Virus record (IMG/VR): IMGVR_UViG_3300020020_000165
Coordinates: 1 to 22,313 of that record
Length of the DNA: 22,313 nt
Source of the DNA: a virus
Reading direction: 5' to 3' (one strand)
Positions 8,898 through 22,313 of the stretch are shown in pieces. Every line of letters starts with the position of its first letter. Position 1 is the stretch's first letter. The notes under the pieces are model-generated. The model had not been told where the DNA came from and ran no database searches. It saw nothing but the letters and a program-made list of their open reading frames with translations. The position numbers and the translations under genes are program-made.

Positions 8898-9164
8898 ATG
8901 CCGATCACCGGGGTCGTCGGACAGGTGAAGTGGGGCTATTACATGGCGGGCGCGATCAACGGCTACCGCGTCGATCGCACCGCGACCGGATGGACGCTCG
9001 CGGCGACCCTCGTCGTGTCGGATGCCTTCAAGCTCGCGCAACGTCCGCTCACCTTCGTCGCCCCGTTCAAAACGGGTGAGTGGCGCTGGCCGATCGTGGA
9101 GCTCGTGATCCGTGACGGGTCGCTCTCGGCGACGCTCGGGAAGCTAGAAGAGGTGAGGCGTTGA
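8898..9164 (+). CDS. Small protein between tail tube and chaperones, function unknown
   Basis: The 88-aa product begins MPITGVVGQVKWGYY and contains WTLAATLVVSDAFKLAQRPL and EWRWPIVELVIRDGSLSATLG. The strand-rich, Trp-containing pattern is compact and looks like a complete small domain. I do not assign a family. The position right after the tube gene suggests a tail component or tube-assembly partner. No clear Shine-Dalgarno sequence precedes the ATG; the gap from the previous stop is 15 bp. Its stop overlaps the next start by one base. Confidence 0.7.
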   Translation: MPITGVVGQVKWGYYMAGAINGYRVDRTATGWTLAATLVVSDAFKLAQRPLTFVAPFKTGEWRWPIVELVIRDGSLSATLGKLEEVRR

Positions 9165-9613
9165 TGGGGTGTCGGATTGTCGTGCCGGATGTCGTCGTGC
9201 TCCCGCTCTCGGACGGGGACTCCCTCACGGTGAAAGCCCGCCTCAACTCCGGGGAGCACCGCGAGATGATTCGCGGCGGGGTCAGCTATGGACCCGACGG
9301 GGATCGCACCTTCGACCCGCTCCGCGGCGCGCTCGCGAAGATCCTCGCCTATCTCGTCGACTGGACGTTCCGCGGGCCCGACGGGCGGGTCGTGCTCATC
9401 CGCGACCAGGGCGCCGCGGTCGTCACCGAGGCGCTCGCGATGATCGACCCCGACTCCTATACGGAGGTGCTCCGCGCGATCGAAGCGCACGAGACCGCCC
9501 AGGAGGCGGACCGCGCCGCCAAAAAAAAGACCCCGGATGGGTCGCCGACGTTACTCGAGACCTCACGATCGCTCGTCGCTGCGGGTGGCGGTATGAGTGG
9601 GTCGTCGACCTAG
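9164..9613 (+). CDS. Tail assembly chaperone, zero-frame product (gpG-like)
   Basis: This protein is thought to coat the tape measure before tube assembly. The zero-frame product is 149 aa: a strand-rich first part (RIVVPDVVVLPLSDGDSLTVKARLN, containing an S-x-T-V-K motif), a helical middle with FDPLRGALAKILAYLVDWTF, then a charged linker with three Lys at the slip site. The start at ATG 9164 is preferred over the TTG at 9161 because GAGG lies 5 bases upstream and the ATG overlaps the previous stop by one base. Ribosomes that slip at 9523-9529 make the longer GT form. Identity rests on position before the tape measure, the two-frame layout and the slippery site. Confidence 0.8.
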   Translation: MGCRIVVPDVVVLPLSDGDSLTVKARLNSGEHREMIRGGVSYGPDGDRTFDPLRGALAKILAYLVDWTFRGPDGRVVLIRDQGAAVVTEALAMIDPDSYTEVLRAIEAHETAQEADRAAKKKTPDGSPTLLETSRSLVAAGGGMSGSST

Positions 9614-9675
9614 ACCGCGACGTGTACGACGTGCTCGTCGGACAACTCCAGGCAGAGGACAGGGACCGCGGATAA
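9164..9675 (+). CDS. Tail assembly chaperone, -1 frameshift product (gpGT-like)
   Basis: This is the joined product of 9164-9529 and 9529-9675 read after a -1 slip, about 170 aa. After the shared 122 residues, the new C-terminus runs DPGWVADVTRDLTIARRCGW and then RYEWVVDLDRDVYDVLVGQL. The YEW...DLD.YDVLV pattern is what T-domains of such chaperones look like, and its codons keep the G/C third-position bias only in the -1 frame. The stop at 9675 touches the tape measure ATG at 9676. In lambda the GT form links G to the tape measure; the same role is inferred here. Confidence 0.8.
9523..9529 (+). promoter_or_regulatory. Slippery heptamer for -1 ribosomal frameshift
   Basis: The heptamer A AAA AAG lies within a run of eight A followed by G, an extreme exception in this G+C-rich genome. 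In the zero frame it reads AAA AAA AAG. After slipping, decoding continues at GAC (9529). No downstream pseudoknot was resolved by eye. Confidence 0.85.
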
Positions 9676-11433
9676 ATGGCGATCACCGGGGCGCTCGTCG
9701 CGGACTTTTCATCCTTCATTGGCGAGGCCGCGAAGGCGGAGACCTCGTTGAAGGGGATGGAACGCGCCGCGGTCACGACCGAAAAGGCGCTCGACAAGAT
9801 GGTCGACGGGGTCGACACCGCGCCCGCGGTCGCCGAGGTGTCGAAGCTCGACGGCGCCCTCAAAGGGGTCTCCGCCTCCGCGAAAGGCTCCGTCACCCCC
9901 GCGCTCGACGAGCTCGGCTCGGTCACCGTCGACACGACGGGGAAAACCAAAGGCTTTAAGGACTCCCTGTCCGAGGTGGACAAGGTCCTTGCCGCGGCGG
10001 GGATCAACCTGGGTCCGCTCCCGAAGGCGCTCGACCAACTCTCGTCCGCGGCGGACGGGTCCTCGACCGCGCTCGGGATGCTCGGGAAAGCCTTTCTCGT
10101 CGTCGCGACCGCCAAAGCGGCCTGGGACACCGGGCGATGGATCGCCGAGCTCGGCGGGCTCGACGATAAGGTCGCGGACTTCGCCGCAGGGCTCATGGGG
10201 ACGAGCTCGTCGGCGGTCGAAGCCGCCGCCGCCCAGGAGACCCTCGCGAAAGCCTCCGCGATCGCGGGTCAAGACATTACGAACATGACCTCCGCGGTCC
10301 GGATCCTCACCCGCGCCCAACAGGATCAATTTGCCGCCAACGTCGAAACGAATAAAGAGCTCGAAAAGACCGCCAAAGAGGCGGAGAAGGCCGCGCAGTT
10401 CTCCGCAAAGCTCTTCAGTCAGGACGATATTGAGCGCGCCTGGACCTACGTCACCGCCCTCAACGGGGTGGAGAACGTCACGAAGCTCACGACCGACAAG
10501 AAAAAAGAGCTCAACCGCGCGGTGACGGACGCGATCGACGCTTACCACGCGCTCGGCGAGCACGCGCCGAAGGCGCTCCGCGACATCGCCTCCGCGACGA
10601 CCCCGCTCATCACCGTGACCGCCTCGTTCGCGTCGGTGTCGTCGGGGGTCTGGGCGCAGTTCAAGTCCCAGGCGGAGGCGGGCGGGGACACGATCGCGAA
10701 GGTGACGGACAAAGCCAAACTCGACTGGACCGACCTGGGGCGGGTGACGCTCGCGGAGCTCGTCCAAACCGCGACCGAGGCACAGGAGAAATACGACTTC
10801 GTCGCGAGCGCCTCCGAAAGCGCGACCACGAAGGAAATCGACGATGTCCGCCGCCTCCGCGACGAGGCCCAAGCCGCGGTCGACGCCTGGGGCGGCGCGA
10901 CGCTCGACGCCTACGACGACATCAAAGACGCCTCGACCGCGACGACGAACAAGCAGATCGCCGATAACAAAGCCGTCGTCGATAACGTGAAGACCTCCTG
11001 GATCGACGCGATGTCGGCGGTCTCCGCCGGAATGGGGACGATGACGGGGACGGTCTCCGGGGTCGTCGACACGTCGAACGCGAACCGCACCGCGATCCAG
11101 CGCGCCTGGGACGAAAACCGTTACTTCGGCCCCGTGACGGGCGGGACCCCGGAGAACCCGAAGGGGACCGGACCCAACTGGTCCGCGCTCGGGTTCCGCG
11201 CCGACGGCGGGCCGGTGCGCGCGGGCGCGCCCTACCTCGTCGGGGAGCGCGGGCCCGAGCTCATGGTCCCCTCGAGCTCGGGGCGGGTCGCCGCGGCGGG
11301 GACCTTCGGCGGCGGGATCACGGTGAACATCTCGACGGTGATGGGGAACCCGCAGGAGATTGCCCGCGTCGTGTCCGCGGCGCTCGTCGACACCGCCCGC
11401 GCCCAGGGCGCCCGCCTTCCGGTCGGAGGCTAA
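9676..11433 (+). CDS. Tape measure protein (short)
   Basis: This protein sets tail length and is ejected ahead of DNA. The 585-aa product has long Ala/Lys/Glu-rich helical stretches (about 20-100 and 190-280), a more hydrophobic segment near 130-155 (LGMLGKAFLVVATAKAAW), and more helices to about 480. The C-terminus carries FRADGGPVRAGAPYLVGERG followed by PELMVP, a signature of tape measure C-termini. No lysozyme or peptidase motif was noticed. Using the established rule of about 0.15 nm per residue, the tail would be near 88 nm. It starts one base after the GT stop, with AGGGA 10 bases upstream. Confidence 0.88.
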   Translation: MAITGALVADFSSFIGEAAKAETSLKGMERAAVTTEKALDKMVDGVDTAPAVAEVSKLDGALKGVSASAKGSVTPALDELGSVTVDTTGKTKGFKDSLSEVDKVLAAAGINLGPLPKALDQLSSAADGSSTALGMLGKAFLVVATAKAAWDTGRWIAELGGLDDKVADFAAGLMGTSSSAVEAAAAQETLAKASAIAGQDITNMTSAVRILTRAQQDQFAANVETNKELEKTAKEAEKAAQFSAKLFSQDDIERAWTYVTALNGVENVTKLTTDKKKELNRAVTDAIDAYHALGEHAPKALRDIASATTPLITVTASFASVSSGVWAQFKSQAEAGGDTIAKVTDKAKLDWTDLGRVTLAELVQTATEAQEKYDFVASASESATTKEIDDVRRLRDEAQAAVDAWGGATLDAYDDIKDASTATTNKQIADNKAVVDNVKTSWIDAMSAVSAGMGTMTGTVSGVVDTSNANRTAIQRAWDENRYFGPVTGGTPENPKGTGPNWSALGFRADGGPVRAGAPYLVGERGPELMVPSSSGRVAAAGTFGGGITVNISTVMGNPQEIARVVSAALVDTARAQGARLPVGG

Positions 11434-11436
11434 CCC

Positions 11437-14400
11437 GTGGCGGCGCCCAAGACCGCCGCGCGGGCCGGGATCGCCCGCTCAGGCGACGCGCGGAGTGGCT
11501 ATCCGATCCCGGTCGGGGCGCGAGCGCTGCTCTACGCGCTCAGTAACGTCGCCCGCTCGGGCGCGACGCGGTCGAACTACACCGACGGGCGGGTCTACAT
11601 CTCCATCGGCGGGATCCAGGTCGGGACCGGGCGCCCCGACCCCGACGCGCGCGTCCTCGTCGCGACTGCCTCCCTGCGGGACGAGCTCCACGAGGCGCCG
11701 ACGACCGCGACGCTCACCGCGGTCGGGTTCGTCCCCGAAATCGGCGACCCCGTGACGATCACGATCGGGAGCCGCAACAACGGCAACGCCGAGTTTACCG
11801 GGACGGTCCTTCGCACGACCCACGGGGCGATCACGTCCGATGCGTCCGTCGACCAAGTGCAACTCGCCTGTATCGACCCGACCTGGGGACTCGACACCCG
11901 CCTCGTCTCCGCCTACTTCACGGGGAGCGCCTCGACCATTGCCGCGGCGCTCGTCGCCGGATGGGCGCCGGGATACACGACGCAGATCCAACCCGGGCTC
12001 GCGACCCTGTCGGGCGGGGTCACCTTCACGAACCAAGAGCTCTCGGACTGCCTCACCCATCTCTGCAAGCGGATCGGCACGACGTGGAGATGTGACTACG
12101 CGAAGGTCGTCCACATCCCCGCGGACTACCCCGAAGAGACCGCGCCCTCCGAGCTCAATGCCGTCCACCCGAGCCTCGCGAACTTCTGGCACGATGTCGA
12201 CCTGTCGCAGCAGGTCACCCGCGTCCACGTCGAAGGCGGCGGAGTCACCGCCGCGGCGACGCTCCCGCCCGGGGAGCCCATGATCCCGCTCATCGGGGAC
12301 CCGTCATGGTACGACCCGGCGGGCGGGGTCGTCGTGTCGGGTCCGCAACGGATCCGGTATACCGGGGTGTCCCAGGGCGGCGGAGGCGGGCTCGTCGGGA
12401 CGGGCGCGGGTCCGACGGGCGCGGTCGGGCTCACCCAGGCGGCGGGGACCGGGGTCCCGCCTGGGGCGCACGGCTACGCGATCACCTTCCAGACCGGGAC
12501 CGGGGAAAGCCTCGCGGGTCCGGTCTCGACGATCGTGAGCGGGGCGATCGCGCCGCCGACCGTGGCCCCGGTCGCGGGCGCCCCGACTGCGGGGCTCGGG
12601 CCCGACCCCGGCTATCACGAGTACGCGATCACCTTCGTGACCGCGACCGGGGAGACCGCCGCGGGTCCGCGCGTCGGGCAGATCACCGCCGCAACCCCCG
12701 CGCCGGGGAGCGCGCCGACGGTCGGGGCGGCGCAACCGGGCGCGGGACTGGAACAGGGGACCCACGACTATCAGGTCACCTTCACGACCGCGACCGGGGA
12801 GACCACGCCGGGTCCGGTCTCGGGCGCGGTGCTCATCGCGCCGATCACGACCCCCGCGCACCCGCCGACCCTGGAAGCCTCCGCGAACGGGCTCGCGGCC
12901 TTCTGGGAACCCGGCGACAGTCTCATCTATGCGTACACCTGGATGACCCCGGCGGGGGGAGAGACCCTCGTCGGGCCCTACGCGAGCATCGTCGCCAAGA
13001 GTGGCGGGACGCTCGTGAAGTTCTGGGAGGACGCGATCGTTCCGCTCGGGGTGTCCTCCCTCCGCCTGTACCGCTATGTCACCGGGTCGCGGACCGAGCT
13101 CCGGATCGCCGCGACGATCCCCGCGACGACCCAGGCGTTTTGGGATTACGGCACGACCCAGGAGCATCCGAACCCGATCACCCCGGGCCCGCCGTCGACC
13201 TCGACCGCCGCGAGCTCGGGGATCGTCCCGCTCTCCGCGATCCCGCTCGGGCCCGCGGGGACGGGGATCACCGGGCGCAAACTTTACCGCCGCTCCCAGG
13301 GCGCCGGGTTCCGTCTGCTCGCGGCGCTCGCGAACAATACCGCGACGACCTATACGGACGCGACCCCGAGCGCGAGCCTGGGCGCCGCCCCGCCCGCGAG
13401 CTCGACCGCCGGGTCGCACCGGATCCCGCTCTCGGGGCTCCAGGTCCCCGATAACCCGCTCGTGACGACCCGCAAGCTCTACGGGACCGCCGCGGGCGGC
13501 GCCGGGGCGGAGGCGCTCCGGTTCGTCGCCGACATCGGGCGGACCGCGACGACCTACACGGTCGCGACCCAGGACAGCGCGCTCGGCGCCGCCCCGCCCG
13601 CGAGCTCGACCGCCTTCGCGCAACAGGTCCAGGTCTCCGGCATCCCGCTCGGGTCCTCCGCGGTCACCGCGCGCAAACTCTATCGGACCGCCGCGAATGC
13701 CGCGGGGCTCCAGTTCCTCGTCACGATCGCCAACAACACGACGACGACCTTTCTCGACGCGATCGGGGATGCCGCGCTCGGCGCCGCCCCGCCGACCGTC
13801 GACACCTCCGCCTTGCAGCAGCCGCAGGGACAGGTCCTCGCGGGCTCGACGGTGCTCCCGGTCGCGAGCCTCGCCGCCTTCCCGCCTGGAGGCGGGTGGG
13901 CGGTGATCGGGAACGGGACCCAGGTGATCAAATACGGGGCGCTCACCGCTGGGGCGCTCACCGGGATCCCCGCGGCGGGGACGGGCGCGATCACCGCGTC
14001 GATCGCCTACAACTCCACGGTGACGGCGGCGCCGATGCTCACCGGGATCCCGACGAGCCTCGCGCGGCGGGTCCGCGACGCGCGGGAGGCGCTCGACGAC
14101 GCGCGCGACGACCTCCGCGACGCGCTCGACGAGGCGCTCGAGGACCGGGACCCCGGCGGGGTCGTCAACCCCCAGGCGGAGGTGGACCCCTTCGCGACCG
14201 AACCGGGACCGATTCGCTACCCCATCCTGCGCGGGTCGGATGTCAACCTGTGGATCACCGAGACCGACGCCGCGGCGGTCGCCTCGCGCGCCGCGCTCCT
14301 GGGGACCGACGGGATCCAAGAGGACTACCACCAGGACCGACGGCTCGGGCGCGGGGAGGCGCGGGCGCGGGCGCTCGCGATCCTCCAACTCAAGAAAGAC

Positions 14401-14625
14401 CCGCTCGTGACGGTCCGGTATACCTGTCGCGATAGCAATACCCGCGCGGGGCGGACGGTCGTCGTGAACCTGGGCGACCCCTACAACCTGTACAAGGTCC
14501 CGCTCGTGATTCAATCGGTCACGACGACGTTTATCGCGACCCGGTCGGGCGCGCTCGCGACGCATACCGTCGAAGCGAGCTCCGCGCGGCTCACCTTTGA
14601 GCAACTCGTCGCGATGATTCGCTAG
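11437..14625 (+). CDS. Large tail hub protein with inserted beta-repeat modules
   Basis: The 1062-aa product appears to be a hub domain split by an insertion. Residues 45-270 (VYISIGGIQVGTG, DPVTITIG, GTVLRTTHG, WRCDYAKVVHIP) and 925-1060 (REDAIRED-like order not seen, but RGSDVNLWITE and NLGDPYNLYKVP) resemble tail-hub proteins of the gpD/gp27 type. Between them are three TATGE-type modules (about 340-370, 390-420, 440-470) plus a degenerate fourth (498-520), then modules with R-K-L-Y-R/G cores (about 540-590, 600-660, 665-727, 730-790), a module with SLAAFPPGGGWAVIGNG (800-870) and a charged helix (876-903). The inserted modules are probably Ig- or fibronectin-like host-binding domains. The start is GTG with GGAGG 7 bases upstream. 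Confidence 0.75.
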   Translation: MAAPKTAARAGIARSGDARSGYPIPVGARALLYALSNVARSGATRSNYTDGRVYISIGGIQVGTGRPDPDARVLVATASLRDELHEAPTTATLTAVGFVPEIGDPVTITIGSRNNGNAEFTGTVLRTTHGAITSDASVDQVQLACIDPTWGLDTRLVSAYFTGSASTIAAALVAGWAPGYTTQIQPGLATLSGGVTFTNQELSDCLTHLCKRIGTTWRCDYAKVVHIPADYPEETAPSELNAVHPSLANFWHDVDLSQQVTRVHVEGGGVTAAATLPPGEPMIPLIGDPSWYDPAGGVVVSGPQRIRYTGVSQGGGGGLVGTGAGPTGAVGLTQAAGTGVPPGAHGYAITFQTGTGESLAGPVSTIVSGAIAPPTVAPVAGAPTAGLGPDPGYHEYAITFVTATGETAAGPRVGQITAATPAPGSAPTVGAAQPGAGLEQGTHDYQVTFTTATGETTPGPVSGAVLIAPITTPAHPPTLEASANGLAAFWEPGDSLIYAYTWMTPAGGETLVGPYASIVAKSGGTLVKFWEDAIVPLGVSSLRLYRYVTGSRTELRIAATIPATTQAFWDYGTTQEHPNPITPGPPSTSTAASSGIVPLSAIPLGPAGTGITGRKLYRRSQGAGFRLLAALANNTATTYTDATPSASLGAAPPASSTAGSHRIPLSGLQVPDNPLVTTRKLYGTAAGGAGAEALRFVADIGRTATTYTVATQDSALGAAPPASSTAFAQQVQVSGIPLGSSAVTARKLYRTAANAAGLQFLVTIANNTTTTFLDAIGDAALGAAPPTVDTSALQQPQGQVLAGSTVLPVASLAAFPPGGGWAVIGNGTQVIKYGALTAGALTGIPAAGTGAITASIAYNSTVTAAPMLTGIPTSLARRVRDAREALDDARDDLRDALDEALEDRDPGGVVNPQAEVDPFATEPGPIRYPILRGSDVNLWITETDAAAVASRAALLGTDGIQEDYHQDRRLGRGEARARALAILQLKKDPLVTVRYTCRDSNTRAGRTVVVNLGDPYNLYKVPLVIQSVTTTFIATRSGALATHTVEASSARLTFEQLVAMIR
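13381..13614 (+). repeat. 30-bp exact repeats marking duplicated modules in the hub gene
   Basis: Identical 30-bp copies lie at 13381-13410 and 13585-13614, 204 bp (68 codons) apart, encoding GAAPPASSTA. A shorter match (14 bp) starts at 13780, 195 bp further on. Identity at silent sites suggests recent duplication or gene conversion between linker segments. Confidence 0.85.
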
Positions 14626-14633
14626 GAGCTCCC

Positions 14634-15089
14634 ATGGCAGTCACGATTACGCGGACCCCCTGGATCGACGACGACGGGACCGGGACAACCGGAACCGTGT
14701 TGAATAACGCGATCAAAACCGAGCTCTACGGGCAGATCGACGCGGCGCTCGCACAGGTCCCGCAGACCGGCGCCCGCCTCACCGCGCCCGCGTTCCTCAC
14801 GGCGAACGGGTTTACGGCGGTCGCCTCCGGGGTCCCGACGCTCGCGTTCAATATCCCCGGCGGCGGTCGGCAGGGGATCCTTGAAGTGTGGACGATGCTC
14901 CCCGGCTCGGGGCTCTCCGCCTGGGGCGCCGCCGCGCGGATCTTGTGGGACGGCTACGCCTCCGTCGTCATGACGACCAACAAAACGCCGTACATGGAGA
15001 TCACGACGGACGGCGCCGCCGGGGTCTTTCTCACCGTCGGACAGACGCATTCTGGGGTCGCGTGGGGATATACGCTGCTCGGGGTCTAG
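14634..15089 (+). CDS. Small tail-tip/minor structural protein
   Basis: The 151-aa product opens MAVTITRTPWIDDDGTGTTG, then TVLNNAIKTELYGQID. This opening recurs in phage tail-associated proteins encoded after the hub gene. The rest is strand-rich with GVPTLAFNIPGGGRQGILEV and ends VAWGYTLLGV. It may be a small receptor-contacting or tip-stabilising protein. AGGAG lies 5 bases before the ATG. Its stop shares the palindrome CTAG with the stop of a minus-strand gene. Recognition is by pattern only. Confidence 0.65.
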   Translation: MAVTITRTPWIDDDGTGTTGTVLNNAIKTELYGQIDAALAQVPQTGARLTAPAFLTANGFTAVASGVPTLAFNIPGGGRQGILEVWTMLPGSGLSAWGAAARILWDGYASVVMTTNKTPYMEITTDGAAGVFLTVGQTHSGVAWGYTLLGV

Positions 15090-15253
15090 CCGGGGCGCCC
15101 TGCGCGGAGCTCGTCGCGCCACGACACGAGACACCGCGGACAGACCGGGACGTATGCTCCGGGCGCGACCTCGACGGGGCGGAGGTACTGCGCCTCCAGG
15201 CGGGCATGGCAGACCGGGCAGACGATCAGTAACGTCGACACAGGATCGGGCAT
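15086..15253 (-). CDS. 55-aa zinc-ribbon protein on the minus strand
   Basis: The minus strand encodes MPDPVSTLLIVCPVCHARLE, and later VPVCPRCLVSWRDELRAGRP. Two CxxC knuckles (C12/C15 and C38/C41) spaced 22 residues apart fit a small zinc ribbon. Codons keep the strong G/C third-position bias of real genes here (GTC, CTC, GCG, GAC). The gene fills the gap exactly: its stop shares CTAG (15086-15089) with the tail gene and its ATG shares CATG (15251-15254) with the divergent gene. No good Shine-Dalgarno sequence precedes it. A start further upstream cannot be excluded. Zinc ribbons often bind nucleic acid or partner proteins; the role is unknown. Confidence 0.55.
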   Translation of the reverse strand: MPDPVSTLLIVCPVCHARLEAQYLRPVEVAPGAYVPVCPRCLVSWRDELRAGRPG

Positions 15254-15638
15254 GGGCTCAGAGTCTACGCGCGGTCCGCGGCTCCTGCGTCAAGGGGTCC
15301 TCTGTGGCGCCCCCGAGCCCGCCCAGGCGGTCGACGACGACCCGGAGGCACTCCCCCCGCCCGACCGCCTCGCGACCTCTGGGGTCGTCTGTGCGACCTG
15401 TGGGGCGGACGTGGCGACCGGGGAGGCGCATACGGTGGAGTGCGACGCGCTCCACGGGCCGTATTGCCCGCCCTGGGTCCCGAGCCCGCCGCCCGCGCTG
15501 GTGGAGCGGCTCACCCGCGCCGCCGACACCTATCCGTTCCTCCGGCGGCTCCTGCTCGACGCGGTCGACGCGCTCACCCAGGTCGACGAGGCGCCCGTCC
15601 GCTCCCGAGGCGGGACACCCCTACAAGTAGTGGATTGA
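15252..15638 (+). CDS. Hypothetical protein with a Cys/His cluster
   Basis: The 128-aa product is not recognised. A probable metal site lies at about residues 46-72: VVCATCGADVATGEAHTVEC and then PYCPPW. A helical C-terminus follows (LVERLTRAADTYPFLRRLLL and a further short helix). AGGA stands 6 bases before the ATG. The first 20 codons have weaker G/C third-position bias than the rest, so the true N-terminus may be shorter, but no other good start is in frame. It overlaps the start of the zinc-ribbon gene on the other strand. A strong hairpin stands about 50 bp after its stop. Confidence 0.6.
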   Translation: MGSESTRGPRLLRQGVLCGAPEPAQAVDDDPEALPPPDRLATSGVVCATCGADVATGEAHTVECDALHGPYCPPWVPSPPPALVERLTRAADTYPFLRRLLLDAVDALTQVDEAPVRSRGGTPLQVVD

Positions 15639-15688
15639 TCAGGCGGACGGGGATCCGGTAGTCTCCCGATCGGTCCCGTACGACGAAA

Positions 15689-15716
15689 GCGGCGCCCCCT
15701 GGGAGGGAGGCGCCGC
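15689..15716. terminator. Strong hairpin, possible terminator
   Basis: GCGGCGCC (15689-15696) and GGCGCCGC (15709-15716) form a perfect 8-bp stem about 50 bp after the stop at 15638. No T-run follows on the plus strand. On the minus strand the stem is followed by TTTCG, a weak tract. A terminator role is plausible but unproved. Confidence 0.4.
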
Positions 15717-16129
15717 CTGGACCGCCGCAAGAGTCTACCTTGCGTTGGCGCCCGTGTTGAGCGGGCCCGACCATCTTAAACCCTTACGACGGAAACCCAG
15801 AAACGCCGCGAACGGACCCGCCTCGCGTGGACGGGTTAACCACCAGCGCGCGACGGTGTCTCTGCCCTACTGGGGGACGGGTCGTCACCAGGGCGCATGC
15901 CTGAGACCGGATGGGTCGACGGGCGGACGGACCGCGCACCGCGAGCGCGAGAAAGGTCGACTCCACGGGCGCCGAGCATCGGCGGCGCCCTGGGCGTGTA
16001 AGGGCTCGGCTCCGTCACTGAAGCGATCCAGTGAGCGCCCAGCGGTCACCCACTCAGCGTCAAACCTTTGGCGCCTGGGGTAGGGAGACCTCTGGGCGCA
16101 GTTACTCTCACCACCCTAAAGCAATCGAC

Positions 16130-16175
16130 GTACAGAGCACGGATCCCCCGGTACAGAGATCCGGTACGTACAGAT
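16130..16175 (+). repeat. Three GTACAGA repeats
   Basis: GTACAGAG lies at 16130-16137 and 16151-16158, and GTACAGAT at 16168-16175, at steps of 21 and 17 bp. CCGGTAC is also repeated (16148-16154 and 16161-16167). The cluster sits about 90-130 bp upstream of a consensus promoter. These could be binding sites for a regulator or initiator protein. Confidence 0.6.
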
Positions 16176-16182
16176 CCCCGCC

Positions 16183-16196
16183 GTTCCACGTGGAAC
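16183..16196. promoter_or_regulatory. Perfect 14-bp palindrome resembling parS
   Basis: GTTCCACGTGGAAC is its own reverse complement. It differs from the widespread bacterial centromere core GTTTCACGTGAAAC at two symmetric positions (12 of 14 match). No ParB-like gene was seen in the window, so host ParB is one candidate partner; another is an unrelated dimeric regulator. Confidence 0.5.
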
Positions 16197-16199
16197 ACA

Positions 16200-16231
16200 G
16201 GGCGCGGAGCTCGTCCGCGAGCGGAGCGCCC
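16200..16231. other. Near-perfect hairpin with symmetric internal loop
   Basis: The parts in order are GGGCGC (16200-16205), GGA, GCTCG (16209-16213), a TCCG tetraloop, CGAGC (16218-16222), GGA and GCGCCC (16226-16231). All eleven stem pairs are perfect and the loop is symmetric. It lies 3 bp after the 14-bp palindrome and 30 bp before the -35 box. It could be a terminator shielding the promoter, a cruciform, or an origin element. Confidence 0.6.
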
Positions 16232-16237
16232 CCCCTG

Positions 16238-16290
16238 GGGACCTGCTGTCCCGCCCCCCTATTGACACGCCTAAGCGGTTGGGATATAAT
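16238..16290 (+). promoter_or_regulatory. Consensus sigma-70 promoter with upstream inverted repeat
   Basis: TTGACA (16262-16267) and TATAAT (16285-16290) are both perfect and are separated by the ideal 17 bp, a striking match in G+C-rich DNA. Transcription should start about 7 bases after the -10 box, at or next to the ATG at 16297. GGGAC (16238-16242) and GTCCC (16248-16252) form a small dyad just upstream of the -35 box, a possible operator or activator site. Confidence 0.85.
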
Positions 16291-16296
16291 GTCTAC

Positions 16297-16512
16297 ATGG
16301 TTAAGCAACGACGACTGACGAAAGCTGACGTCACGGTGACGTACGAGCCGCCCGACGGTTACTGGATTGATCTTCCGGTCGGTTGGGTAATGGACGACGG
16401 CTCGCACGGGATCGCCGAGGACACGAAACGCGAGGCGCTCGCGAAACTCTCGATCGCGGCGCCGTGCGACTGCGCCCGCTGCAACCCAAGCCGCGCGATG
16501 GACGCGCGATGA
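16297..16512 (+). CDS. 71-aa protein, probably from a leaderless mRNA
   Basis: The product starts MVKQRRLTKADVTVTYEPPD and includes GYWIDLPVGWVMDDGSHGIA, then a helix and a Cys-containing end, APCDCARCNP. The function is unknown. The ATG at 16297 is chosen because it is the expected transcription start of the consensus promoter; a TTG at 16279 lies inside the promoter. There is thus no room for a Shine-Dalgarno sequence. As first gene of the operon that reaches at least 17827, and under the only consensus promoter seen, it may be an early regulator or anti-host protein. It joins the next gene in an ATGA overlap. Confidence 0.65.
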   Translation: MVKQRRLTKADVTVTYEPPDGYWIDLPVGWVMDDGSHGIAEDTKREALAKLSIAAPCDCARCNPSRAMDAR

Positions 16513-16853
16513 GCGCCCGTAAGAATCCGCACGCGGTCGCCCTGGGGAGGCTCGGCGGCTCGGTCACCTCCGAGGCGAAAGCCGCCGCCGCCCGCGCGAA
16601 CGGGGCGCTCGGCGGTCGCCCGCGCGAAGATCGCGAAGTGAAGATGACCCCGGCGGAGCGCGAGGCGTACCGCGCCGCGGTGCTCTGCGTCGGATGTGAT
16701 CGCCCGCTCCGCGAGGCGCACCCGACGATCGAAGGGCATCTCGCGTGCGAAGCCGCCCAGCAAGCCGCGGTCCGCGCGGAGCTCGACGCCGCGCACCGCG
16801 CCGCCGACGAGCGGGCCCGCGTCGCTCGGCGCCTCGCCCGCCGCCGTCGCTAG
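16509..16853 (+). CDS. Small basic protein with GGRP-type motif and Cys cluster
   Basis: The 114-aa product opens MSARKNPHAVALGRLGGSVT, followed by SEAKAAAARANGALGGRPRE. This Gly/Ala/Arg pattern (GRLGG..T..AKAAAARANG.LGGRP) recurs in small phage and plasmid proteins thought to touch nucleic acid, but no firm role is known. The middle has CVGCDRPLREAHPTIEGHLA and a further Cys, which could bind zinc. The C-terminus is a long Ala/Arg-rich helix ending in RRLARRRR. The ATG lies in an ATGA overlap with the preceding gene. Confidence 0.65.
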   Translation: MSARKNPHAVALGRLGGSVTSEAKAAAARANGALGGRPREDREVKMTPAEREAYRAAVLCVGCDRPLREAHPTIEGHLACEAAQQAAVRAELDAAHRAADERARVARRLARRRR

Positions 16854-16864
16854 AATGCTAGACT

Positions 16865-16892
16865 CCGGGGCGCGACCGCGCGTCGCCCCCGG
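16865..16892 (+). promoter_or_regulatory. Hairpin abutting the RusA-like start codon
   Basis: CCGGGG (16865-16870) pairs with CCCCGG (16887-16892), and the next base is the A of ATG 16893. No Shine-Dalgarno sequence is present. The stem may attenuate transcription or control ribosome entry between the 16509 gene and the RusA-like gene. Confidence 0.35.
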
Positions 16893-17525
16893 ATGCCTTC
16901 CCCGCCTTCGCTCCCGGTCTCCGCCGCCCGCGTCGCCCGTCGGCGCCGCCTCAATACGCTCCGCCTCCCCTCGACCCCGCACCCCGAGACCCGACAGGTC
17001 CGACACGGCTCGGTCGCCCGCCTCGACGGCGGGCTCGTGATCCGGCTCCCAAAGCCGCTGGAATCCCCGAACCTGTGGCTCTGGACCCATTGGCGGACCA
17101 AGCACGCGGCAAAGGCGGCATGGGCGGCGGCGCTCCGCCTCGCGGTCGTCGACACGATCGGCGGGCGCCCCGGGGTCCCGCTCCGTATGCTCGGCGACGG
17201 TCCGGTCGCCCAGGCGATCGGGTGGGTCCCGCCCCCAGGTCGGGTCATCGTCACGATCGAGCGCCGATGCCACTCGTCGCGCCAATTCATCCGCGACCGC
17301 GACAACCGCCTGTTCTCCGGAAAAGCGCTCGTCGACTGCCTCGTCGGCGCCGGGTTCCTGCGGGCGGACGATGAGACCGCGATCGACCTGGAGGTGCTCC
17401 AGGCGGTCTCCGACGACGGCGGGGACTGGACGGTCGTGACGCTCACCCCGGAGCTCGACCCCGAGGACCTCGAGCACGAGGACCCCATCCGCGACGGGTG
17501 GGTCGGGAAGGACGGGCGCCCGTGA
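16893..17525 (+). CDS. RusA-like Holliday junction resolvase
   Basis: RusA-type enzymes cut four-way DNA junctions made during replication and recombination, which helps present linear DNA to terminase. The 210-aa product has PNLWLWTHWRTKHAAKAAW (59-77), a degenerate form of the family's early motif, and then FIRDRDNRLFSGKALVDCLV (132-151) plus GAGFLRADDE. D135, D137 and N138, K144, D148 and D159-D160 are candidates for the active site. RusA itself uses D-x-D-N then Lys and Asp; here the Lys is shifted by a three-residue insertion, as in divergent relatives. It is longer than typical RusA (about 120 aa). The ATG at 16893 follows a hairpin and lacks a ribosome site. Confidence 0.72.
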   Translation: MPSPPSLPVSAARVARRRRLNTLRLPSTPHPETRQVRHGSVARLDGGLVIRLPKPLESPNLWLWTHWRTKHAAKAAWAAALRLAVVDTIGGRPGVPLRMLGDGPVAQAIGWVPPPGRVIVTIERRCHSSRQFIRDRDNRLFSGKALVDCLVGAGFLRADDETAIDLEVLQAVSDDGGDWTVVTLTPELDPEDLEHEDPIRDGWVGKDGRP

Positions 17526-17827
17526 AACCCCGCGTCAACGGCTCCCCGGTGACCCATCCGACCCAGGCGGAGACCCTGGACCACCTTGCCGCGGTGCTCA
17601 TCGCGGAGGACCGCCCCGCCTGGGCGTTCATGGTCTCGACCGCCGCCGAGGCGCTCGCGGGTCGTCGGATGCTCCGCCCCGCCGAGCTCGACGGGCTCCT
17701 CGAGCTGTTGGACTACGTCGCCGAAGTCATGGTCGCCCGCGAGCGCCCCGCCTGGGCGCGACAGGTCGTCGACGCCGCCGATACCCTGCGGGCCCGCCGC
17801 CCCGCGCCGCCCCGAAAGGTCCGCTAA
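17522..17827 (+). CDS. Hypothetical protein with internal duplication
   Basis: The 101-aa product starts with GTG in a GTGA overlap with the RusA-like gene. Two helical halves repeat each other: HLAAVLIAEDRPAWAFMVST and YVAEVMVARERPAWARQVVD, each followed by an AAxxLxxRR end. The shared core is a helix, an R-P-A-W turn and another helix, so the protein may be a two-repeat helical bundle that presents both turns alike. No family is recognised. A Pro/Arg tail follows. The next gene starts two bases after its stop. Confidence 0.65.
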   Translation: MKPRVNGSPVTHPTQAETLDHLAAVLIAEDRPAWAFMVSTAAEALAGRRMLRPAELDGLLELLDYVAEVMVARERPAWARQVVDAADTLRARRPAPPRKVR

Positions 17828-17828
17828 C

Positions 17829-19475
17829 GTGCCGAACCCGATCTCTCTCGCGCTCCCCTCCGGTCACTACCTCACCGCCGAGCTCGACGGGACCCTCGCG
17901 GCGGACCGCCTCGAGGCGGGACCCTGGGAGCAATGGACCGTGGAGGACCATCCGTCGGGCGGGTTCGCCCTGCGGAGCGCCCACGGCGGGTATCTCTCCG
18001 CCTACTCCCCGGAGCATTGCGCCTCCCTGGGCCTCCCGGCCCATGCGGCGGGCGCTACGGGGCTCGCGGCGGGTCCGTGGGAGGCGTGGACCTGTGAGGA
18101 CGACGGGTCGCTTATAAGCCTCCGGAGCGCCTGGGGACGGTATCTCCGCGCCGAAGGCGGCGGAGGCTCGACGGTCGACGCCGGGGGTGAGGCGGTCGGA
18201 CCCTGGGAATACCTGCTCCCGTCCTCCCTGGACGTGTTCCACCTGGGCGGCTCGGGCTCCGGACCGGGGACGGGACCCCTGCGCCCGCTCGTCGGGGAGG
18301 TGCGCCCCTTCGCGCGCTCATTCTGCGACGAGACCGGACCCCGGCTCGTCCACGGGTGCTCGGACTTCGCCGCGCTCGTGAAGTACCACGAGGACCGGGA
18401 CCGCTTTCTCGCGGAGCTCGACATCACCGCCGCGCACCAGCAATACACCCGGATCTTGTGGCGGCTCAACGGCTGGCTCTGGACGACCTCCGGATTGACG
18501 GTCGACCCCATCCGCGACGGCTGGTTTGACGACGCGCTCGCCGGGGTCCTCGACGCGCATCAGGCGCGCGGGCTCCGGGTCAACCTGAGCTCCGGGGATA
18601 TGAATGGATGGAGCGATGCCCAGGCGGAGGACGCCTTTCGCCGCGTCGCCCAGATCGCCGCGGACTACGGCGACACCGTATGGTTGAGCGCCTGTACCAA
18701 CGAGATGGAAGGGACGTGGAGCCCCGGAGAGACCCCGGAGCATATCGCCCGCGGTCACGAGCTCATGAAGATCTGGCGGTCGATCTACCCCGGCGGCTGC
18801 TGGGCGGTCTCCGACCCGAAGGACCGCAACCGGGACGGCATGGCGGCGCTCGCGGGGAACGTCGCCCTGATCCACGATCAACGCTGGGAAATCGCCGACG
18901 CGCTCCGTCACGCCTTCAATTCCCGCTACGAGAACGACCCCGGGTGTCCCATCGTCCAGGACGAGCCGACGGGCCCGAATGGGAGCCCCCCGTACAACGA
19001 TTACACCCGCCTCGTCTATCAACCGATTGAAGATCACGACGAGCTCGCGGCGCTCTACACCATGCACGTCCTCACCGGGCAGGGCTCGACGTACTTCAAC
19101 GATCCCGCCCTGGTGTCGCGCGAGGCGCTCTCGTCGACCTGGGGGTTCCGCGAGCTCCCGCAACTGTGGCGGGACCTGGAGATCCCCGAGGACATCGGGC
19201 AAGGGGAGCTCGGCGCGGGCCATACCGGGCGCGGACTGATGGACGTGATGGACTCGCACGCGGCGCGGGCCGACGGGGCGATGGTGGGCGGCTACGGGCT
19301 CGGGGTCATCTCGGGCGCCTGGGACGGGGAGCCCTGGGCGGTCAAGGCGCTCGTCGACGGGACGTGGAGTGTGTGGTACGGGGACGGCAAAGCCTGGGAG
19401 GGTCGCCTGTCGGCGGGACAGGTGATCCCCTGTCCGCGCGGGTTCGCCCCCGCGATCGTGCGGTGTCTGACGTGA
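17829..19475 (+). CDS. Beta-trefoil plus TIM-barrel glycosidase-like protein; candidate endolysin or depolymerase
   Basis: The 548-aa product starts with three beta-trefoil repeats (about 1-133), each with a G-P-W-E core (31, 82, 124) and LRSAHGGYLSA or LRSAWGRYLRAE, like fascin- or lectin-type trefoils. A Gly/Ser linker (140-150) leads to a domain of about 300 residues. LSACTNEMEGTW (287-298) gives an Asn-Glu pair (N291-E292) as on strand 4 of clan GH-A barrels, and IVQDEPTG (375-382) gives E379 as a strand-7 candidate. A small strand-rich end follows (about 485-548). It probably cuts a host polysaccharide or peptidoglycan glycan. No signal peptide is seen. The start is GTG; AAAGG is 9 bases upstream. 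Confidence 0.6.
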   Translation: MPNPISLALPSGHYLTAELDGTLAADRLEAGPWEQWTVEDHPSGGFALRSAHGGYLSAYSPEHCASLGLPAHAAGATGLAAGPWEAWTCEDDGSLISLRSAWGRYLRAEGGGGSTVDAGGEAVGPWEYLLPSSLDVFHLGGSGSGPGTGPLRPLVGEVRPFARSFCDETGPRLVHGCSDFAALVKYHEDRDRFLAELDITAAHQQYTRILWRLNGWLWTTSGLTVDPIRDGWFDDALAGVLDAHQARGLRVNLSSGDMNGWSDAQAEDAFRRVAQIAADYGDTVWLSACTNEMEGTWSPGETPEHIARGHELMKIWRSIYPGGCWAVSDPKDRNRDGMAALAGNVALIHDQRWEIADALRHAFNSRYENDPGCPIVQDEPTGPNGSPPYNDYTRLVYQPIEDHDELAALYTMHVLTGQGSTYFNDPALVSREALSSTWGFRELPQLWRDLEIPEDIGQGELGAGHTGRGLMDVMDSHAARADGAMVGGYGLGVISGAWDGEPWAVKALVDGTWSVWYGDGKAWEGRLSAGQVIPCPRGFAPAIVRCLT

Positions 19476-19627
19476 CGGCGCCGCCGCCCCGCCCCGGGAA
19501 ATATCGCGGGCTCGCGCTCCCCGACGGCGGGCCCTCCCCGGTCGCCGCGTGCATCCTCGCCGCGGTGATCGCCGGGGGTCTCTGGGCGTGGACGCTCGCG
19601 GTGCTCGCAGTCCTCGCGGCGCGGTGA
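19472..19627 (+). CDS. 51-aa membrane protein, holin candidate
   Basis: This product begins in a GTGA overlap with the glycosidase-like gene. A Pro-rich N-terminus with Lys and Arg (TAPPPRPGKYRGLALPDGGP) is followed by about 29 uncharged residues, with AACILAAVIAGGLWAWTLAV and then LAVLAA, ending in Arg. One long span or a tight hairpin of two short spans is possible. Its size, lack of other domains and place after a lytic-enzyme candidate suggest a holin or pinholin. The gene overlaps the next by a further GTGA. Confidence 0.5.
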   Translation: MTAPPPRPGKYRGLALPDGGPSPVAACILAAVIAGGLWAWTLAVLAVLAAR

Positions 19628-19863
19628 CCACGAGGATGGCGCCCAGGGTCGCGCTCGCGCTCGTGCTCGTGCTCGCGCTGGGCGCGGGCGCCTGTGGGAC
19701 GCGGGCGCTCCTGCCGACGCATATCGTGATCCTCGTCCCGCGGTGTCCCGACGGGCTCCCGCCGCGGATTCTCGTGGATCAGGCGTGTCCGCCCAACGGG
19801 ATCTGCGGGTTCTCGTGTCACCCGACGCGCTGGGACCCGCCGCCGGTGAAACTGGAAGGGTAG
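19624..19863 (+). CDS. Small Pro/Cys-rich lipoprotein, outer spanin candidate
   Basis: The 79-aa product has a basic N-terminus (MTTRMAPR), a hydrophobic core (VALALVLVLALG) and AGAC, a usable though imperfect lipobox with Cys24 as the lipid site. The mature part is short and rich in Pro and Cys (VPRCPDGLPPRILVDQACPP, then NGICGFSC and a WDPPPVKLEG end). Short Pro-rich lipoproteins of this kind act as outer-membrane spanin subunits in Gram-negative phages. GTG at 19624 is chosen for the GTGA overlap; an ATG at 19636 would remove four residues. The next product could be its inner partner. Confidence 0.5.
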   Translation: MTTRMAPRVALALVLVLALGAGACGTRALLPTHIVILVPRCPDGLPPRILVDQACPPNGICGFSCHPTRWDPPPVKLEG

Positions 19864-19866
19864 CCG

Positions 19867-20145
19867 GTGGACGGACCGCCCCTCGTGCTGCTCGCGCTCG
19901 GTCTCGGGGTGCTCGCGGCGCTCGTCGCGGTGATGGGTACCTGGAGACCGACCCAGGCGCCCAACGTCGACCCGCTCCGCGCCGCCCGCCGGGGCGCGGA
20001 CGAGCTCCGCAACGCCGCGGACGCGCTCGACCGCGCCGCGAAGAGTCTCGCCGCTGCGCTCTATAGTGATCAGGCCACAGAGACCGCCCGCGCCGCCGCG
20101 CGGGCTCGGCGCGCCGCCGCCGCGGTCGACGCGCTCGGAGGGTAA
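19867..20145 (+). CDS. Membrane-anchored coiled-coil protein, inner spanin candidate
   Basis: The 92-aa product has an N-terminal membrane span (about 5-23, LVLLALGLGVLAALVAVMG) and then a soluble helical part rich in Ala, Arg and Asp (about 38-90, with DPLRAARRGADELRNAADAL). Such a span with a periplasmic helix is the form of inner spanin subunits. The start is GTG with AAGGG 6 bases upstream. In Rz/Rz1 pairs the inner subunit usually comes first, whereas here the lipoprotein comes first. Roles in membrane signalling or superinfection exclusion also fit. Confidence 0.5.
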   Translation: MDGPPLVLLALGLGVLAALVAVMGTWRPTQAPNVDPLRAARRGADELRNAADALDRAAKSLAAALYSDQATETARAAARARRAAAAVDALGG

Positions 20146-20149
20146 CCGG

Positions 20150-20230
20150 ATGGTAATGACACTCGACACGGTGCTCCTGCTGATCATCGCGATCATCCTC
20201 GTCGGGGCGATCGCGCGCGGGCGCCTCTAG
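20150..20230 (+). CDS. 26-aa single-span membrane peptide
   Basis: GGAGGG lies 7 bases before the ATG, one of the best ribosome sites in the window. The product reads MVMTLDTVLLLIIAIILVGA then IARGRL: one membrane helix with a basic end. It is the last of four small membrane genes after the glycosidase-like gene, so an accessory lysis role (antiholin or pinholin-like) is possible. Its stop shares the palindrome CTAG with the stop of the minus-strand gene. Confidence 0.6.
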   Translation: MVMTLDTVLLLIIAIILVGAIARGRL

Positions 20231-20523
20231 TCGAAGGGGAGCGCGCCCTGATCGTCGTCGCCGAAGGGGAGCGCGCCTTGTCGGTCGACGACCGCCTCCG
20301 CGAGCCGCTCCCGCGCGACCGCCTCCGCGAGCGGGCGAAACTCGTCGGGATAGGTCGCGAAACAGTGGGTCCCCGTCCCGTTGGTTTTCGGTCGTAACGC
20401 CTTCATCGGCGGCGCGCCATAGACGGTCGTATAGGCGTCGCGGACTGCGGCGCCAACGTCCCAGGACAACGGCGCCGCGGGAGTCACCCCGAGCCCGCGG
20501 AGTACCTCGACCACGGTAAACAA
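20227..20523 (-). CDS. Protein with two C-terminal QGALPF motifs
   Basis: The 98-aa product is not recognised as a family. Its N-terminal half (VVEVLRGLGVTPAAPLSWDV) looks helical, the middle has KTNGTGTHCFATYPDEFRPL, then a helix of about 17 residues. It ends RQGALPFGDDDQGALPFD. Q-x-x-L-x-F is a known form of the bacterial sliding-clamp-binding peptide, and the tail also has the acidic run plus Pro-Phe seen at SSB tips. The tail could therefore recruit host replication proteins. The start is TTG at 20523 with GGGGGA upstream, or GTG three codons later. Its stop shares CTAG with the membrane peptide gene; it follows the next minus-strand gene after one base. Confidence 0.6.
   Translation of the reverse strand: MFTVVEVLRGLGVTPAAPLSWDVGAAVRDAYTTVYGAPPMKALRPKTNGTGTHCFATYPDEFRPLAEAVARERLAEAVVDRQGALPFGDDDQGALPFD
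20232..20280 (-). repeat. 30-bp-period repeat encoding the QGALPF pair
   Basis: Copies at 20232-20250 and 20262-20280 match at 18 of 19 bases, at a 30-bp step (10 codons). They encode the two QGALPF ends of the minus-strand protein. Confidence 0.8.
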
Positions 20524-20524
20524 C

Positions 20525-20866
20525 CTAGTCCCCCGCCTCCCAGGCGGAGCGATTCATCGGTTGATACCGCCGCACCAGCGCGACCACGCTTGCATGGCAC
20601 GCCTCCGCCGCCGCGCGGCTCGAGCTCCGGAAGGTGTCCCCGTCCTCCGGACCCCCAACGATCATGGTCTCCCACAGGAGCGGGGTCCGCGGGGTCTCCG
20701 CGGTCGCATGGTCGATGCCCAGGAACAGCGTCGACACGACGACCCCGCCGACCTCGTCGCGGGCCACGACGCGATCGGCGGTCGCAATCCAGAGCGCCCA
20801 GGTCGTCACGTCCCCGACGCGCGACGGCGCGCCGGTCTCACTCAGAATGTAGAGCCGCGCTCCCAT
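20525..20866 (-). CDS. Conserved phage protein of unknown function
   Basis: The 113-aa product has WALWIATADRVVARDEVGG, then VVVSTLFLGIDHA, PLLWETMIVGG and EACHASVVALVRR. The pattern W-A-x-W...VST-x-F-L-G-x-D-H...ETM-x-x-G...H recurs in many phage genomes as an uncharacterised small protein, recalled from general knowledge rather than a search. The ATG at 20866 is chosen because GGGGGT lies 5 bases upstream; a TTG at 20884 would add six residues. It is transcribed leftward from the divergent gap and shares the message with the QGALPF gene. Conserved His, Asp and Glu could mean metal binding. Confidence 0.7.
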   Translation of the reverse strand: MGARLYILSETGAPSRVGDVTTWALWIATADRVVARDEVGGVVVSTLFLGIDHATAETPRTPLLWETMIVGGPEDGDTFRSSSRAAAEACHASVVALVRRYQPMNRSAWEAGD

Positions 20867-20895
20867 ACAACCCCCCGGTGACAAGGTAGGTCACG

Positions 20896-20925
20896 ACCGC
20901 CGCAAACCGCCGCAAACCGCCGCAA
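20896..20925. repeat. Three perfect 10-bp tandem repeats
   Basis: ACCGCCGCAA is repeated three times without change, in the divergent gap between the minus-strand genes and the right-end plus-strand genes. The 10-bp step places each copy on nearly the same face of the helix, as for operators. On the minus strand each copy reads TTGCGGCGGT. No clear promoter was found for either direction. Confidence 0.75.
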
Positions 20926-21104
20926 CGCCAAACGCCCCGCGCCCCGCCCCCAGCGGTTCAACCCCGCGCCCGACGCCTATCACCGGACGCAGGGCGGACG
21001 AGGTGAGGGTCCGACAGGGGACAGGTCGCAGGGCGGCGCGATCATCGCATACACTAGCCACGAGGCGCCCCATAGCACGGACACGAACGAAGGACAAGCC
21101 GGAA

Positions 21105-21118
21105 CCTGTATCCACAGG
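21105..21118. promoter_or_regulatory. Inverted repeat overlapping a DnaA-box-like site
   Basis: CCTGT (21105-21109) and ACAGG (21114-21118) form a perfect dyad with a 4-bp gap. Within it GTATCCACA (21108-21116) matches the DnaA box TTATCCACA at 8 of 9 positions. It lies 35 bp before the TerS-like gene. One box alone is weak evidence of an origin; an operator is equally likely. Confidence 0.35.
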
Positions 21119-21152
21119 TCGTCGACAGCGCGGCGCGACCCATCTCGACCTC

Positions 21153-21461
21153 ATGCCGTCCGACCTTCCCGACTCGCTCCGCCCCGCCTGGGCCTCCCTC
21201 GCCGCCGCCGCGGTCCGCGCGGGGACGCTTACGGCAGAGACGGCGCCCGGGTTTGTCGACGCGGTGCTCGCCCCGCTCGACCTCGCCCGATGGATTCGCG
21301 CCCGGATTGAGGCGGACGGGTTACTCGTGGAGGACGACAACGGTCCGATGCCGCACCCGCTCATCCGCGAATACGCCGCGCTCGTCCCCGTGCTCCGAGC
21401 GGGGCTCCGGCTCTACGGGCTCACCCCCGAGCTCGTCGCCGATCGGGAGGACGCATCGTGA
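21153..21461 (+). CDS. Second small-terminase-like (P27-like) protein
   Basis: The 102-aa product has LRPAWASLAAAAVRAGTLT, a helical middle with DLARWIRARIEADGLLVEDD, and NGPMPHPLIREYAALVPVLR followed by AGLRLYGLTPE. The layout matches the core of P27 small terminases, and it parallels the window's own TerS: W..L, a run of helices, a G.xMP(H/N)PL segment, then a helix ending in LGLTP or YGLTP. The basic N-terminal region and the late SRAK end are absent. It might be a second DNA-recognition subunit or a modulator. The ATG at 21153 is chosen because codons before it lose coding bias; no good Shine-Dalgarno sequence is seen. Confidence 0.6.
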   Translation: MPSDLPDSLRPAWASLAAAAVRAGTLTAETAPGFVDAVLAPLDLARWIRARIEADGLLVEDDNGPMPHPLIREYAALVPVLRAGLRLYGLTPELVADREDAS

Positions 21462-21670
21462 TCAGGGACCAAGACACCGCGGCGGAGCTCGTCGCGTTCG
21501 TGTTCGACCAAGCGTCGGAGGCGCTCGACCGCGGCGCGCTGCTCGTGCTCTCGCGATCGGGGGACGATCTGGCATGGTCCGTTGTCCCGCCGGATTGTGA
21601 TCTCGACCTGGGCGATGTCCGCTATCTCCACGCCCAGGTGGGCGGCGGGATCCCCGAGGCGGACGCATGA
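21458..21670 (+). CDS. 70-aa acidic hypothetical protein
   Basis: The product begins MIRDQDTAAELVAFVFDQAS and has EALDRGALLVLSRSGDDLAW, ending YLHAQVGGGIPEADA. It is acidic with one probable helix and a few strands. No family is recognised. GTG at 21458 has GGAGG 7 bases upstream and overlaps the stop of the TerS-like gene (GTGA). The next gene starts in an ATGA overlap, so the four right-end genes form one operon. Confidence 0.65.
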   Translation: MIRDQDTAAELVAFVFDQASEALDRGALLVLSRSGDDLAWSVVPPDCDLDLGDVRYLHAQVGGGIPEADA

Positions 21671-21876
21671 CGACAGAGGACCGCGCGGCGCTGGAACGCA
21701 CGAAGGACAAGCTCTGGTCGCTCTACATCGACACCGCGAAGGATGTCGACAACTCGCGCGCCCTGGAGGCGCACGTCCGCGAGCAAGTGCTCCGGATTGA
21801 GGCGGTGCGGCAACTCGCGCTCGACGGCTACCGCGAGGCGGTCGCCGCGCTCGACCGCGCCGACGAGGGGGACTAG
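21667..21876 (+). CDS. 69-aa helical hypothetical protein
   Basis: The product is almost entirely helical and charged: RAALERTKDKLWSLYIDTAK, then SRALEAHVREQVLRIEAVRQ, with a third helix. It may form a coiled-coil or helical hairpin dimer. GAGG lies 7 bases before the ATG, which overlaps the preceding stop. Its stop TAG shares a base with the GTG of the HNH gene. Function is unknown. Its place just before HNH and terS makes a packaging-related role thinkable. Confidence 0.65.
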   Translation: MTTEDRAALERTKDKLWSLYIDTAKDVDNSRALEAHVREQVLRIEAVRQLALDGYREAVAALDRADEGD

Positions 21877-22253
21877 TGCCGGAGGGGGGAGGGGTCCGCG
21901 TCCGCCCGTGCTCGACGCCGGGGTGTCCCGCGCTCGTCACCCAGGGCGCCCGCTGTCGCACCCATGCGACGACGCATGACCGGATGCGCGGGACCATGCG
22001 CGAGCGCGGGTACTCCGTCCGCTGGGGTCATGCCGCGGCGCGGTTCCGCCGCCTGTATCCCCTGTGCGGAGACCGCCCGAATGCCCAAGAACCGGTGATG
22101 AGTCAATGCCGCGCGATGGGGCGCACGACGATCGCGACCCTTGTCGATCATGTTGTGCCGCACCGGGGTGATCCGGTGAAGTTCTGGGATGAGGCAAACT
22201 GGCAATCGCTCTGCGCGTCGTGCCACAGTGCCAAAACCCGCGCCGGGTTCTAA
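21876..22253 (+). CDS. HNH endonuclease
   Basis: HNH nucleases encoded next to terminase genes assist cos cleavage and packaging in HK97-like phages. The 125-aa product has an N-terminal Cys/His cluster (CSTPGCPALVTQGARCRTH, 12-30), a basic helix with RMRGTMRERGYSVRWGHAAA, and the HNH core: C64 and C78, then LVDHVVPHRGDPVKFWDEAN (89-108) and C113, C116, H117. D91-H92, N108 and H117 are the expected catalytic set; the four Cys are the structural zinc site. The start is GTG, overlapping the previous stop by one base. On a closed circle the next gene is terS. Confidence 0.88.
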   Translation: MPEGGGVRVRPCSTPGCPALVTQGARCRTHATTHDRMRGTMRERGYSVRWGHAAARFRRLYPLCGDRPNAQEPVMSQCRAMGRTTIATLVDHVVPHRGDPVKFWDEANWQSLCASCHSAKTRAGF

Positions 22254-22313
22254 GTGCCGGGGTCGGATGCGATGGGGGGATCCAAAATGTTGCAGCCGAG
22301 TTGGCGCCGAAAC
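22254..22313. other. Non-coding end of window
   Basis: The last 60 bases have no gene. The word CCAAAATG occurs both here and near position 30, but no longer shared end was found. The region would join the leader at 1-188 if the window is a closed circle. Confidence 0.4.

Follow-up and report, generated by a model that had tools for sequence, protein, structure and literature searches.

A perfect sigma-70 promoter with a palindromic spacer operator in a phage genome and its likely autoregulation by a small KGG protein

A promoter with two perfect boxes placed immediately before a start codon raises the question of whether it is simply open to the host polymerase or is itself controlled. Such a promoter lies at 16262-16299 of the sequence studied in this work (the window), a linear IMG/VR virus record of 22,313 bases from a soil phage, with about 70% G+C and a tailed-phage gene set. 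A first-pass annotation described it as a perfect promoter driving a leaderless gene and included neither an operator in the spacer nor the KGG gene that follows. With these two elements the picture shifts from a simple open promoter to one that is probably self-regulated. The features concerned are listed below.

16262-16267, + strand: -35 box TTGACA, read directly in the sequence
16270-16283, + strand: palindromic operator CCTAAGCGGTTGGG, which fits the frame CCNAANCGNTTNGG and occupies the spacer of the two boxes (-27 to -14 relative to the predicted start)
16285-16290, + strand: -10 box TATAAT, read directly in the sequence
16297, + strand: predicted transcription start (+1), the A of the start codon and the seventh base after the -10 box
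16297-16512, + strand: gene 1, very probably leaderless, a 71-aa protein of an unnamed family with homologues in other phages
16509-16853, + strand: gene 2, the KGG protein, 114 aa, a presumed DNA-binding autorepressor (profile E 3e-18)
16893-17525, + strand: downstream gene for a RusA-like Holliday junction resolvase (PHROG 34, E 1.6e-8)

The promoter and the palindrome in its spacer

The perfect boxes and 17-bp spacing claimed in the first-pass annotation were borne out, and six nucleotides (GTCTAC) separate TATAAT from the ATG at 16297-16299; if the -10 box is taken as -12 to -7, A16297 is +1. Within 4000-22313 this is the sole promoter-like site at the scanner cut-off, scoring 12/12 in a scan where 0.8 chance sites scoring at least 9/12 are expected. 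By a first-order Markov estimate, 4e-5 perfect promoters with 16-18 bp spacing are expected on both strands of the window, and the probability of an ATG exactly at +7 is 0.008. The arrangement TANNNT-N6-ATG by itself is not significant (one in the window vs 0.7 expected). The next independent sigma-70 match in the window reaches 12.8 bits vs 22.8 for this promoter, so that the absence of other recognisable promoters, also claimed earlier, holds true for the sigma-70 consensus. Since this consensus is perfect, we can reasonably infer that the unmodified host RNA polymerase reads the promoter. That it is the first one used on entry is plausible, because it is strong and the presumed repressor would be absent at that moment.

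When promoters were scored in 91 phage sequences, the spacers of promoters from the window, G001 and L012 all fitted CCNAANCGNTTNGG at the identical place. A scan of the viral collection with TTGACANNCCNAANCGNTTNGGNTANNNT matched 29 viral contigs, where roughly 0.3 would be expected by a hand estimate that assumes a collection of roughly 4e10 bases. The G+C content of these loci ranges from 0.32 to 0.65, that of the window being 0.70. Positions left free by the pattern are conserved too: AA follows TTGACA (23/26 and 21/26), preferences within the palindrome are symmetric, and TATAAT emerges at the free -10 positions. The window promoter has the layout TTGACA-N2-CCNAANCGNTTNGG-N-TANNNT, by which we define the class, and a literature search on the operator strings returned no report of this operator.

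Upstream of the promoter, at 15640-16260, about 620 bp hold no convincing gene, which is unusual for so compact a phage. Besides several inverted repeats, the gap contains a parS-like site and a ACGTACAGA direct repeat (16128, 16166). The parS-like site is the perfect palindrome GTTCCACGTGGAAC at 16183-16196. In Myxococcus xanthus this sequence forms the core of the parS consensus of the chromosome (PMC3899335), and it also appears in the literature on Pseudomonas aeruginosa parS. One exact copy each is present in G001 (23195) and G002 (12077), and also in L173, L236 and L346; over 4.3 Mb of fetched loci it has 7 matches (6 contigs), whereas 420 palindromes of equal composition average 0.03. 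This suggests that some phages carry a host ParB loading site. In L295 (5778-5791, equal to G002 12077-12090) the site lies inside an apparent tail tape-measure gene, where its codons GTT CCA CGT GGA look unusual for a phage of 70% G+C, as though the DNA sequence had been preserved for its own sake.

As to the record as a whole, two terminase-small-subunit-like genes stand at its opposite ends (189-659 and 21003-21461), with the large terminase at the left and an HNH gene at the right; the record is possibly a nearly complete genome in circularly permuted form. A terminase search of 84,980 bacterial and archaeal genomes gave a best match of 55%, in an Acidobacteria MAG contig, and named no host; searches for Rfam families and tRNAs in the window found none.

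The start of gene 1

As previously noted, no Shine-Dalgarno (SD) sequence precedes the ATG at 16297. Many other genes of the window have GGAG/GGAGG-type sequences 5-8 nt before their starts, so that SD sequences are used elsewhere by this phage. The ATG is the conserved N-terminus among the homologues of gene 1, which were found at 63-67% identity in three other phages, and in three of the four close homologous genes the -10 box lies exactly 6 nt before the ATG. The homologue in G001 (L002) has TATAAT-N6-ATG with a poor -35 box, that in G003 (L166) has TTGACA-N17-TAGACT-N6-ATG, and that in G002 (L003) is operon-internal and preceded by GGAGG; a more distant relative, in L302/L314, is SD-led behind a promoter of the window's class. 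Across 866 kb of phage DNA, TATAAT occurs six times; three of these precede an ATG by exactly six bases, two in G001 and the third in the window. The generic TANNNT-to-ATG spacing in the same DNA has no N6 peak; N6 is therefore a property of these promoters, and general leaderlessness in these phages is not implied.

The strongest argument for leaderlessness in this analysis comes from the operator class, because it is independent of start codons. The class comprises 34 distinct promoters, in 12 of which an ATG follows the -10 box at 5-7 nt; the remaining 22 have none there. In these 22, a C stands at +6 after the -10 box in 18 and an A at +7 in 19, and an SD-like sequence is present in 19. 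The conserved CA is best read as an initiator, which would place +1 at the seventh base after the -10 box, that is, at A16297. The leaderless start proposed earlier is thus supported both by the promoters of the homologous genes and by the CA kept in relatives without an ATG at that place, and we regard it as very likely. Gene 1 has two marks of a leaderless gene: its -10 box lies some 6 nt upstream of the start codon, and it has no SD. Translation by intact ribosomes, which had been suggested for this gene, is a property that has been reported for leaderless mRNAs generally.

Leaderless genes in which a TANNNT -10 box sits about 12 bp upstream of the start codon are found, for example, in Actinobacteria and Deinococcus-Thermus (PMC3160421, PMC12340547). 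Gene 1 resembles them in its -10 box 6 nt upstream of the ATG, its lack of an SD and its predicted RNA start at the start codon, but its promoter has in addition a perfect -35 box and a spacer operator, and many other genes of the phage look SD-led.

A set of promoters was seen in G002 (the contig of L003), where six near-identical TTGACATACA...TTTGACATACAAT promoters (TTGACA/TACAAT) occur within 6 kb (32759-38638), with an ATG at N6-N7 in three and not in the other three. They form a natural series for comparing two initiation modes, and the operator class forms another, of leaderless vs SD-led genes behind one promoter.

Association of the operator with KGG genes

Gene 2 lies 251 bp downstream of the window promoter on the same strand; its start overlaps the stop of gene 1 (ATGA) and no SD is present, and from this arrangement we infer translational coupling of the two genes. 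When the proteins of the operator contigs were clustered, one family was found in 22 of 32 sequences, the KGG family. Profile and whole-record searches then placed a KGG gene in 28/28 testable operator contigs, the L306 contig being left out as it ends too soon, and in 27 of these it follows the operator on the same strand at a distance of 33 to about 1,500 bp (within 1.7 kb). As several contigs are near-duplicates, the independent cases number closer to 24 (26 of the promoter sequences are distinct). The exception is the L304 contig, with the KGG gene 22 kb from the operator on the opposite strand. As controls, KGG was found in 0/79 terminase-related loci (794 kb) and within 1.7 kb of 0/79 perfect leaderless promoters chosen without the operator. 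The operator-KGG module recurs across metagenomes, in contigs that are identical or closely related (L308, L311, L317 and L327; L302 and L314; L303 and L326).

In the reverse test, 80 viral loci fetched by KGG alone, plus a few earlier KGG loci and minus two already in the operator set, gave 84 loci. In the 1.5 kb upstream of these KGG genes, CC.AA.CG.TT.GG was first among 1,024 palindromes of the same spacing (12 loci). After deduplication it was present exactly in 12 of 63 upstream regions and with at most one mismatch in 25, vs 0-5 for palindromes of the same composition, and most exact matches sit in a -35/-10 context. At 38 of the 63 loci there is no operator within 1.5 kb, even with one mismatch, and since these are the majority, KGG variants may recognise different sites or serve other functions.

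The same association was observed on plasmids, where DUF2442 proteins, mostly paired with DUF4160, carry the KGG motif as a C-terminal tail. The operator lies at most 400 nt upstream of the first gene in 7 of 9 plasmid operons with a KGG-tailed DUF2442 antitoxin (at most one mismatch), and the palindrome again ranks first of 1,024 upstream of the nine operons, the next best being found at 3/9. The link spans plasmids of alpha-, beta- and gammaproteobacteria and of a cyanobacterium. What the phages and the plasmids have in common is the KGG motif, which makes this motif the most economical candidate for the reader of the operator.

The KGG consensus, xxKNPAAVALGRKGGxVKSEAKxxAxRENGKKGGRPKKx, had no match in Pfam, NCBIfam or PHROGs, and a search of the family against the PDB by sequence matched no solved structure. 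The KGG protein of L308 has a length of 48 aa. PADLOC gave one weak match (E1-E2, E 0.0012), in the helical C-terminal part of gene 2 and outside the KGG motif. In the model of the window protein the N-terminal motif forms two short helices followed by a long helix, with a moderate pLDDT of about 66-81 over the motif; the long helix could pair.

For gene 1, searches of Pfam, NCBIfam and PHROGs gave nothing useful, PADLOC gave no match, and no match was found among named phages or, for the family, in the PDB by sequence. Its model (pLDDT 82) has three strands and one helix, and Foldseek returned nothing below E 1. Chains of HicB (2dsy, 6u0i, 6hpb, 6g1c) are among the best structural matches, at a weak Z of 2.6-3.1, and we take this resemblance as a faint lead and not as a result. 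In L400 (2827-3438) a single protein of 204 aa combines a cysteine-rich N-terminal part with the KGG motif and the gene 1 domain; its start is leaderless and lies behind the same operator, and gene 1 may be a KGG partner. The fusion is like HicB, which joins its own domain to a DNA-binding part; the differences are that gene 1 has a Z of only about 3, no sequence match and no recognised HicA gene adjoining it.

A self-regulated cassette, its alternatives and known systems

These results have to be weighed against simpler readings. The first-pass view of a constitutive early promoter with a leaderless gene and a functionless spacer sequence agrees with the perfect boxes and the start geometry. 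It can also draw on G001 (4895) and G003, where the homologous genes have promoters without the operator, so that the 71-aa gene does not need one. Nevertheless, a spacer palindrome that recurs in 29 contigs with G+C from 0.32 to 0.70 and tracks KGG genes in three tests argues against it, and we consider this view quite improbable. A host transcription factor, such as a protein of the LacI/GalR type, might instead recognise the operator and make the promoter responsive to host physiology; of the site, only the AANCGNTT core, with its central CG, resembles LacI-family operators. Such a factor would not require a linked KGG gene, whereas the link persists across phages that differ widely in G+C and across plasmids of several bacterial groups, which makes a host reader unlikely.

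A further alternative concerns the transcript, which could have a short leader or another start, with translation from another codon such as the GTG at codon 14. Sigma-70 starts vary by one or two bases, and L302/L314 place an SD-led relative of gene 1 behind the same promoter class. Against this, CA at +6/+7 is kept across the class, the ATG is the conserved N-terminus and no SD precedes it, so that a different start appears highly improbable.

We return to autoregulation by the KGG protein. On the promoter geometry, the operator, the conserved start position of the class and the operator-KGG association, all of which are observed, the following course can be proposed. On entry the host polymerase would find the promoter open, since no KGG protein is yet present, and transcription from A16297 would yield a leaderless mRNA for the 71-aa protein and the KGG protein. 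As KGG accumulates, it would bind the operator between the -35 and -10 boxes, where a dimer on -27 to -14 would exclude RNA polymerase, and the outcome would be an early pulse of expression. Because L400 fuses its domain to KGG, the 71-aa protein is perhaps a co-regulator. We judge it likely that 16262-16299 is the core of a compact self-regulated cassette of this kind.

Self-repressed phage promoters are known. Arc of phage P22, a tiny repressor, shuts its own early promoter Pant from an operator between -35 and -10, and the logic of an early pulse with an operator between the boxes is the one proposed for KGG. Arc is, however, a ribbon-helix-helix protein with a different operator, and KGG has no sequence match to it; for the ribbon-helix-helix fold KGG had no Pfam match, and its motif is modelled, at moderate confidence, as two short helices without a strand.

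The plasmid operons offer a second comparison. The DUF4160/DUF2442 pair DhiTA is a toxin-antitoxin system that represses its own promoter through the antitoxin and, more strongly, through the complex (PMC8198452), and a DUF4160-DUF2442 module of Thermus is likewise a toxin-antitoxin pair with autorepression (PMC12724237). The likeness to the phage cassette lies in the small operon, probably autoregulated in the phage as well, and, among the plasmid members examined, in a KGG-tailed antitoxin and the operator before the first gene. The phage cassette differs in having no DUF4160 or DUF2442 (no Pfam match to either in genes 1 and 2 of the window), KGG standing alone or joined to other domains, and no toxicity is implied.

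The DNA-binding motif and its operator are possibly new. We lean towards regarding KGG as an undescribed DNA-binding module of about 35 residues with its own operator, CCNAANCGNTTNGG, common to phage autorepressors, KGG-tailed antitoxins and other fusions in several bacterial phyla, and often found at leaderless promoters. A single curious promoter thereby becomes a class, with one operator-promoter layout that plasmid toxin-antitoxin modules share with phages whose base composition varies greatly, and that is tied to one tiny protein motif that is unnamed in the family databases searched. If KGG binds the operator, this would give a function to a common unnamed phage protein and a regulator to a class of DUF2442 antitoxins, and would provide a searchable signature of phage operons in metagenomes as well as a compact repressor-operator pair.
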